Source: Bacteroidales bacterium (lineage in GTDB: Bacteria; Bacteroidota; Bacteroidia; Bacteroidales; VadinHA17). From it: DNA of 64,000 nt. Numbering within the stretch: position 1 is the stretch's first letter; every line of letters begins with the position of its first letter. Under the pieces are notes generated by a model. The model was not told the origin of the DNA. It searched no databases and worked only from the letters and a program-made list of their open reading frames with translations. Of this stretch, positions 15,974-16,910 are shown piece by piece. The DNA lies in NCBI GenBank assembly GCA_024763075.1, contig JANTGF010000006.1, positions 1 through 64,000 on the forward strand, read 5' to 3'. The position numbers and the translations under genes are program-made.

Positions 15974-16002
15974 AAAGGGAGGTGAATTTCCTCCTTTTTT
16001 TT
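15974..16002 (+). terminator. Rho-independent terminator after the DUF4861 gene
   Basis: Stem GGAGG/CCTCC with loop TGAATTT, preceded by AAAAG and followed by eight T. It lies about 50 nt beyond the stop codon and before the ATP-cone gene. Confidence 0.8.
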
Positions 16003-16061: not shown

Positions 16062-16910
16062 ATGGGAATAAGTATAGTAAAGAAATCGGGCGAGTCCATA
16101 CCCTTCGATCCTGCTAAAATGAAGAATTCACTGGAAAGATCCGGTGCAGGTTCGGATGACATCAGGTTTATTTTGAAGGAGGTTGAAAAAGAGCTGTACG
16201 ATGGTATAACTACCCGGAAAATATATCGCAAGGCTTATGCTTTATTAAAAAAGATTTCCAGTGGAGCTGCGGGCAGATACAGGCTGAAGGAAGCAATAAT
16301 GGAACTTGGGCCTACCGGGTTCCCGTTTGAAAAATTTGTTGGGGAACTATTCCGTTATCAGGGTTACAAGGTAAAAACCGGAGAAATTGTACAGGGGAAA
16401 TGCGTGAGTCATGAGGTAGATGTAGTTGCAGAAAAAGAAAATGAGGTCTTAATGCTGGAATGTAAGTTTCACGCATTGGCAGGTCGGAAAAGTGATGTAA
16501 AGGTATCTCTTTATATTCATTCCCGTTTTGAAGATATCCGGGATGAAAGAAAAAAGAACCCTCAAAACACGGAGGATTGTTCTTTCAAGGGTGGCCTGGT
16601 AACGAATACAAAATTTACCGGGGATGCAATTGACTATGGTATTTGTGCAGGTTTAAAAATGATTAGCTGGGACTTCCCGGGTTCAGGCAGCCTGAAAAAC
16701 AGGATCGATATTTCAGGTTTATTCCCTATTACCTGCCTTTTTAGCCTCAGAAAAGCTGAAAAAAAGCAATTAATTGAACGTGGAGTGGTAATGTGTAAAG
16801 AATTGTGCGAAAAACCTGATCTTATTAAAATTTTGGGAGTAACTCAAACCCGTTTTAATAAAATACAGCAGGAAGTGACAGCAATATGTAATTCTAAAAT
16901 TCATGCTTAG
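16062..16910 (+). CDS. ATP-cone domain fused to a PD-(D/E)XK (Mrr-like) nuclease domain
   Basis: 282 residues. Residues 1-85 read as an ATP-cone, the nucleotide-sensing module of ribonucleotide reductases and NrdR (SIVKKSGESIPFDPAKMKNS, then DGITTRKIYRKAYALLKK). From about 87 a restriction-endonuclease-like core follows: GFPFEKFVGELFRYQGYKV, then HEVDVVAEKENEVLMLECKF, where Asp120, Glu133 and Lys135 fit the D...ExK catalytic triad. The C-terminal 90 residues end in a helical segment. Known family logic suggests a nuclease sensitive to (d)NTP levels, which is inference. The gene stands alone between a terminator and eno, with no methyltransferase nearby, so a classical restriction role is unlikely. 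Confidence 0.78.
   Translation: MGISIVKKSGESIPFDPAKMKNSLERSGAGSDDIRFILKEVEKELYDGITTRKIYRKAYALLKKISSGAAGRYRLKEAIMELGPTGFPFEKFVGELFRYQGYKVKTGEIVQGKCVSHEVDVVAEKENEVLMLECKFHALAGRKSDVKVSLYIHSRFEDIRDERKKNPQNTEDCSFKGGLVTNTKFTGDAIDYGICAGLKMISWDFPGSGSLKNRIDISGLFPITCLFSLRKAEKKQLIERGVVMCKELCEKPDLIKILGVTQTRFNKIQQEVTAICNSKIHA

Follow-up and report, generated by a model that had tools for sequence, protein, structure and literature searches.

An ATP-cone joined to a PD-(D/E)XK nuclease in Bacteroidales, and a possible role in nucleic-acid turnover under stress

The Nuclease Gene and its Surroundings

We examined a window of 64,000 nucleotides (positions 1 to 64,000 of contig JANTGF010000006.1) from a Bacteroidales genome. 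At 16062..16910 on the plus strand it holds an open reading frame with an ATG start, whose 282 amino acids join an ATP-cone to a conserved PD-(D/E)XK nuclease core. Three parts can be marked off, all on the plus strand: the ATP-cone at residues 1-79 (16062..16298), from Pfam, fold and residue mapping; the nuclease core at residues 85-206 (16314..16679), from the Mrr_cat match and the match to PDB entry 1Y88; and a helical, AF1548-like C-terminal domain at residues 207-282 (16680..16907), from a Pfam match below cut-off and the structure model. In Pfam, PF03477 (ATP-cone) matches residues 4-56 over its curated cut-off (27.8 vs. 25.8 bits) and PF04471 (Mrr_cat) matches residues 86-138 over its own (23.0 vs. 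21 bits); PF22357 (AF1548-like_C) falls just below, at residues 221-275 (20.7 vs. 23.9 bits). Among 137 aligned family members the first two match 133 and 131 (E<=1e-3) and the third 83, and the fold of the C-terminal domain agrees with the third assignment. No Mrr_N or modified-base reader domain was found in the protein by Pfam at E<=1, its N-terminus being the ATP-cone. Nor is there an N-terminal CARF domain: the PADLOC CARF_PDDEXK models match only residues 85-142, and residues 1-79 are the ATP-cone.

The upstream gene encodes a DUF4861 protein. Between it and the nuclease gene lies a likely intrinsic terminator of the upstream gene (15978..16002, plus strand), with a GGAGG/CCTCC stem around a 7-base loop at 15978-15994, followed by eight T; this stem was read directly from the sequence, and the hairpin listing places it on the minus strand. 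Downstream, an enolase gene starts 239 bp after the nuclease gene, which from this layout looks transcriptionally isolated in the window. The ten neighboring window proteins include no methyltransferase by Pfam or PADLOC, as had been predicted, and no defense protein by PADLOC (E<=1e-5). Farther along are genes for a SiaC-family regulatory phosphoprotein (PF09345; 21571-21993, minus strand) and for a dinitrogenase iron-molybdenum cofactor family protein (PF02579; 19821-20276, minus strand); the latter adjoins a zinc alcohol dehydrogenase gene, and no nitrogenase genes are among its examined neighbors.

The host genome (4.59 Mb, 96%-complete) has the window gene as its sole ATP-cone at E<=1e-3, so that the single ribonucleotide reductase large subunit found there is without one by that test.

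Structure Model and Residue Conservation

An alignment of family members (A2, 137 rows) served as input both to an AF2 model and to residue counts. The full-length model has mean pLDDT 95.2 and pTM 0.90. Its residues 1-79 superpose on the E. coli NrdR ATP-cone with Z about 10 and rmsd 1.5-1.7, and its residues 85-279 on AF1548 of Archaeoglobus (1Y88) with Z 22.2 over 183 residues. AF1548 is also the single strong phmmer match among solved structures (E 6e-25, residues 92-268). It shares the nuclease core, the C-terminal domain and the catalytic triad with the window protein, yet the chain of the solved structure, at 199 residues, is too short to include an ATP-cone, its residue 23 corresponding to query residue 92. 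Conversely, the fold and the nucleotide-contacting lysines of the window cone recall those of NrdR and ribonucleotide reductase, but here the cone sits on a nuclease rather than on a reductase or zinc ribbon. The C-terminal 76 residues modeled alone (pLDDT 83) again come nearest to AF1548/1Y88 (Z 8.2) and next to RAD51-type helix-hairpin-helix/SAM-like domains (Z about 7); the latter likeness is weak and only suggestive of DNA binding.

D120, E133 and K135 are invariant in the alignment (137/137). The predicted catalytic aspartate D120 lies at 16419..16421 and the E-x-K motif E133-C134-K135 at 16458..16466, both on the plus strand. The phmmer alignment to 1Y88 matches these three to D38, E51 and K53 of AF1548, predicted there to be catalytic (PMC1821046). 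The further columns invariant in 137/137 include E90, an acidic residue in the first helix of the core (16329..16331, plus strand), H117, E118, C134, Y151 and N182. The original prediction, made from the sequence alone, had proposed this fusion and named Asp120, Glu133 and Lys135 as its active site. Both halves are over their Pfam cut-offs and carry the expected folds (Z about 10 and Z 22.2), and the triad had been placed correctly; neither of the two results named as contrary to it, an ATP-cone failing HMM support or a triad varying among homologs, appeared.

For the cone, NrdR and NrdA references were taken from the E. coli K-12 genome. NrdR mutants at K53, V51 and K65 lose nucleotide binding (PMC12176259). 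The corresponding positions are kept in the family: K7 (16080-16082) is lysine in 135/137, I5 is isoleucine or valine in 136/137, and K19 (16116-16118) is lysine in 129/137. T51 (16212-16214; NrdA T55) is threonine in 132/137 and Y55 (NrdA H59) is tyrosine in 132/137; these codons are on the plus strand. The position of NrdR E59 is poorly kept, with glutamate in 41/137 and isoleucine in the window protein. Since the K53, V51 and K65 positions are kept and E59 is not, the sensor looks functional, judged from conservation, yet unlike that of NrdR in detail.

One may ask if the cone is instead a degenerate structural remnant, leaving a nuclease that nucleotides do not gate. Loss of the NrdR E59 position in most members, together with variability at that of NrdA R10, points that way. 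Against it, K7, K19, T51, Y55, R72 and K76 are all kept across 137 diverse sequences, and the cone recurs on a second enzyme encoded in the same genomic island (below). We regard a remnant as quite unlikely.

The nuclease core is shared at Z about 10 by enzymes of differing function: MspJI, AspBHI, EndoMS, Card1, Can2 and Cdn1. MspJI, AspBHI and Mrr, modification-dependent restriction enzymes, resemble the window protein in core fold (Z 10-11), but it has neither a modified-base-binding domain nor the Mrr N-terminal domain by Pfam. The CARF-PD-(D/E)XK proteins Card1, Can2 and Cdn1 likewise couple a nucleotide sensor to a PD-(D/E)XK core (Z 9.6-10), but their CARF domain senses cyclic oligoadenylates in CRISPR defense, whereas here the sensor is an ATP-cone and no CRISPR context was seen. 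EndoMS and a Pyrococcus repair nuclease score Z 10.4-10.9, which, with the ability of ATP-cones to report dATP and the faint helix-hairpin-helix character of the C-terminus, could be read as a DNA-repair endonuclease of the EndoMS/NucS kind, active when dNTP pools are unbalanced. Restriction enzymes give similar Z, however, no repair genes were identified among the recurring neighbors of the family, and the partner described below is a ribonuclease-type beta-CASP protein, so a repair role seems distinctly improbable.

Distribution of the Family

We found family matches in 10 of 60 relatives of the host and in 73 of 395 genomes sampled from the phylum, one of the latter (G400) being counted on a 59-residue match alone; some genomes have two copies or three (as G257 does). 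The phylum is what was surveyed systematically, and members from archaea, Chlamydiota and Bdellovibrionota came as single finds, including a relative carried by a Bacteriovoracaceae metagenome bin (L165). At least 586 stretches of GTDB genomes encode a relative. Two relatives were found in 72,556 plasmids, one from Chlamydiota and one from Bacteroidota, both annotated "ATP cone domain-containing protein." None occurred in 50,697 phage records, and of nine pattern matches in IMG/VR viral contigs none was confirmed as a relative.

A search with the AF1548-like_C family gave no match in the host genome, and likewise none in 14 control genomes.

Gene Neighborhoods

To the window we added 60 fetched stretches (from the survey and from relative hits) and 80 named loci. 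Of these 141, 139 were usable; two (L157 and L162) were dropped since our own ORF caller gave no nuclease ORF below 400 aa in them. The 139 include at least two duplicates (L102 of L042, L103 of L044), and the 80 named loci, being the best 80 of at least 586, are biased to relatives near the window protein. Neighbors within 10 kb were grouped by single linkage, on the output of the same crude ORF caller, and compared with 20 control stretches, a small number, from the same genomes.

A metallo-beta-lactamase (MBL) fold protein of the beta-CASP type is the most frequent of the neighbors counted, at 60/139 loci and 0/20 controls; its gene is always codirectional with the nuclease gene and lies one to three positions downstream. 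P-type cation ATPases follow (53/139 vs. 0/20), then universal stress proteins (43/139, in 91 copies, vs. 0/20) and type II GAPDH (21/139 vs. 0/20). Less common are a 2-hydroxyacid (D-lactate-type) dehydrogenase (18/139), the thymidine/AMP-phosphorylase family and PRPP synthetase (17/139 each) and class I aldolase (15/139). The 60 fetched stretches alone hold beta-CASP in 23, P-type ATPase in 23, universal stress protein in 13, GAPDH in 8, 2-hydroxyacid dehydrogenase in 5, and phosphorylase, PRPP synthetase and aldolase in 2 each. At least one of twelve listed gene kinds is present at 93/139 loci, or 40/60 of the fetched stretches, and at 1/20 controls. Response regulators were dropped as evidence, being near 29/139 nucleases but also in 7/20 controls.

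Two small neighbor genes gave no NCBIfam match at E<=1e-5. One, of about 84-91 aa, is in 15 loci and in 14 immediately follows the nuclease gene (e.g., L130:8873-9148, plus strand). The other, present in 9 loci at a distance of one to three genes after the nuclease, codes for 181 aa that begin with a P-loop-like segment (e.g., L131:8844-9389, plus strand).

Upstream of the 61 nuclease genes preceded by an intergenic gap of at least 60 bases we saw no prominent shared palindrome, of the FNR/FixK type or any other. Most nuclease genes closely follow another gene, so the real operon promoter often lies outside the stretch searched.

Defense genes are not enriched in this setting. For PADLOC we sampled 125 of the 290 neighbor proteins in 60 survey loci and 125 of 321 control proteins; removing two neighbors at contig ends and seven controls close to the ends of their stretches left 123 and 118. 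Among the neighbors 11 families matched, each in one of the 123 sampled proteins, with several of these being housekeeping proteins that resemble defense families; the figure for the 118 controls was 77. Since a type I specificity gene and Fic genes were by chance among the controls, the comparison indicates the absence of an excess and nothing beyond that. This bears on phage defense, which the original prediction had suggested and for which it had proposed just such a neighbor survey. The protein would then be a type IV-like nuclease or an abortive-infection effector that senses nucleotide changes during infection, built like Card1 or Can2 with an ATP-cone in place of CARF. The core's resemblance to MspJI, AspBHI, Can2, Card1 and Cdn1, the contact of PADLOC CARF_PDDEXK models with the nuclease part, the patchy occurrence and the presence on two plasmids are all compatible with that role. 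Yet PADLOC saw no defense genes beside the window gene and no excess of them beside its relatives, the phage records and viral contigs searched gave no relative, and linkage is steadily to stress and metabolic genes instead. Defense therefore appears very unlikely, and the family context suggests controlled nucleic-acid breakdown under stress.

The Beta-CASP Partner

In 44 of the 60 loci with a downstream beta-CASP gene the gap from the nuclease is at most 16 bp, often with overlap, and in the Bacteriovoracaceae bin the two overlap by 4 bp. The partner carries the RNA-specificity domain PF07521. Taking one such protein as query, we found matches in 235 of the 395 phylum genomes at E<=1e-60. 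At 495 bits or more there are 43 places in 41 genomes, and all 41 are nuclease-positive (vs. 73/395 overall, hypergeometric 5e-36); the 495-bit line was set after viewing the list, whose next row (G424, 483 bits) is without the nuclease. Of the 43 places, 41 start within 58 bp of the nuclease end, one is at 324 bp and one on another contig. The 41 genomes belong to 16 genera, with adjacency to the nuclease in 15. A subfamily of beta-CASP ribonuclease is thus the dedicated partner in many relatives.

In a tree built from the 137 nucleases, the state "beta-CASP downstream" needs 17 changes, at least nine of them forced by starred branches, vs. 42 when shuffled; 10 rows on short contigs were left out of the count. 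The pairing has thus often been kept, and repeatedly lost or gained. The window protein belongs to a clade (20 rows, 97*) without beta-CASP, and listed neighbor genes turn up at only 2 of the 19 loci examined from it, each time a P-type ATPase. In the window no beta-CASP gene lies directly downstream, and the host genome has no beta-CASP match at E<=1e-60 and no match to the phosphorylase model NF003338 at E<=1e-100. The original description of a gene standing alone thus holds for the window and its own clade, but this arrangement is untypical of the family, with its 60/139 loci having beta-CASP downstream. The role of the window copy is argued from homology and from its conserved sensor and active site.

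So tight a pairing with a protein bearing PF07521, with universal stress proteins nearby, could also mean RNA processing or decay: beta-CASP and the ATP-cone nuclease would form a two-nuclease stress decay complex, without salvage. Mrr-like cores mostly cut DNA, however, and some of the operons continue with a phosphorylase and PRPP synthetase. We consider a complex devoted to RNA unlikely.

Longer Operons, Plasmids and a Second ATP-Cone

The phosphorylase and PRPP synthetase genes are rare, being found at 2/60 survey loci and 15/78 top-scoring loci. One such phosphorylase (from L124) matches NF003338 and TIGR02645 best, over both cut-offs, and scores well, below cut-off, against the AMP phosphorylase model TIGR03327. 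NF003338 is found in 3 of the 395 phylum genomes, all nuclease-positive (p 0.006).

A full arrangement is on a plasmid (L201) of Criblamydia sequanensis, an environmental chlamydia, which carries a whole energy island including the nuclease operon. Genes for CusA, a P-type ATPase, phosphoketolase and glucan phosphorylase lead to the nuclease, which is followed by MBL, thymidine phosphorylase family, PRPP synthetase and acetate kinase; a glucoamylase-family gene comes next, on the opposite strand. On the Pontibacter plasmid the order is 2-hydroxyacid dehydrogenase, nuclease, MBL, thymidine phosphorylase family and PRPP synthetase.

Related beta-CASP proteins are encoded in 204 plasmid records, mostly proteobacterial, often beside a phosphorylase. 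A Legionella fallonii plasmid has MBL, thymidine phosphorylase, PRPP synthetase and phosphoketolase without the nuclease, and a Pseudorhizobium plasmid is similar; an Aureibacter plasmid has a beta-CASP relative with none of the phosphorylase, PRPP synthetase or phosphoketolase-type neighbors. The three kinds of gene found after the nuclease on both the Criblamydia and the Pontibacter plasmid also make up bll3117-bll3116-bll3115 of Bradyrhizobium (thymidine phosphorylase, PRPP synthetase and MBL), reported as induced by microoxia in dependence on FixK2; the FixK2 list also has phosphoketolase-acetate kinase, a universal stress protein and Hsp20 (PMC6515984, PMC9104804). The Bradyrhizobium operon differs in that the available portions of these reports list no ATP-cone nuclease, and bll3115 is likened to beta-CASP by gene kind only.

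At four loci of one genus, a glucoamylase-like protein encoded two genes downstream of the nuclease has an N-terminal ATP-cone of its own (L051:1241-2776, L052:10351-11886, L056:10317-11852 and L058:10502-12031, all on the plus strand). Its glucoamylase-like part matches PF10091 (E 5e-86 for the L056 copy), and its cones are 49-59% identical to the nuclease cones of the same four loci, as if the domain had been copied within the operon onto the glucoamylase-like enzyme. Sharing of a cone by these two enzymes points to nucleotide state as a common signal of the island. We found no paper joining "ATP-cone" and "glucoamylase."

Proposed Role

Tentatively, and at somewhat less than an even chance, we propose that the family consists of nucleases gated by an ATP-cone, which serve to turn over and salvage nucleic acids in cells stressed for energy or oxygen. 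The protein would be a metal-dependent PD-(D/E)XK nuclease that adenine nucleotides, bound to the N-terminal cone, turn on or off. The core's likeness to Mrr and the weak helix-hairpin-helix resemblance favor DNA as substrate. Gating itself we infer from the conserved sensor, and its direction by analogy with the oligomer behavior of NrdR. With ATP alone, NrdR forms oligomers unable to bind DNA, and with ATP plus dATP or ADP plus dATP it takes a DNA-binding form (PMC12176259, PMC9110341), which the authors of that work interpret as a response to scarce energy and little use of dNTPs. By this analogy ATP alone in the cone would most likely hold the nuclease off; as ATP falls and ADP or dATP replaces it, a change of oligomer like that of NrdR would release the enzyme. 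In many relatives the nuclease would work with the dedicated beta-CASP ribonuclease of its operon. In some, the phosphorylase and PRPP synthetase would join in, with nucleic acids cut to nucleotides and (deoxy)ribose phosphates recovered at times of energy or oxygen shortage. Where phosphorylase, PRPP synthetase and phosphoketolase occur, they would take up the products. The window copy, its sensor and active site unchanged, would be a version that stands alone, presumably sharing the family's catalysis, substrate and stress induction. DNA salvage, the other role originally suggested, agrees with the neighbors that recur elsewhere (beta-CASP, thymidine/AMP-phosphorylase family, PRPP synthetase, phosphoketolase).

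A bolder version, which we consider rather unlikely, is an energy-sensing operon. A drop in ATP would unlock the nuclease through its cone; with beta-CASP, phosphorylase and PRPP synthetase it would break down nucleic acids of the cell itself to pentose phosphates, from which phosphoketolase and acetate kinase would make ATP. Further catabolic enzymes of the island, the glucoamylase for one, would be acquiring the cone.

That no function is established for the family, as originally stated, agrees with the open-licence full text in PMC, where our searches turned up no article dealing with an ATP-cone nuclease; fusions of this kind may be mentioned in the first description of the domain (Aravind, Wolf and Koonin 2000). 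The closest literature is the prediction for AF1548, whose function is given by prediction only in the part of that source available (PMC1821046). The available text of four other papers describes the ATP-cone on ribonucleotide reductases and NrdR only (PMC9110341, PMC5794259, PMC4390871, PMC12176259). A widespread nuclease family (73/395 genomes) with a conserved cone would extend allostery by nucleotide level to the destruction of nucleic acids, and the constant association with a ribonuclease within stress islands offers a direct, testable entry to DNA and RNA recycling in starving or oxygen-limited bacteria.
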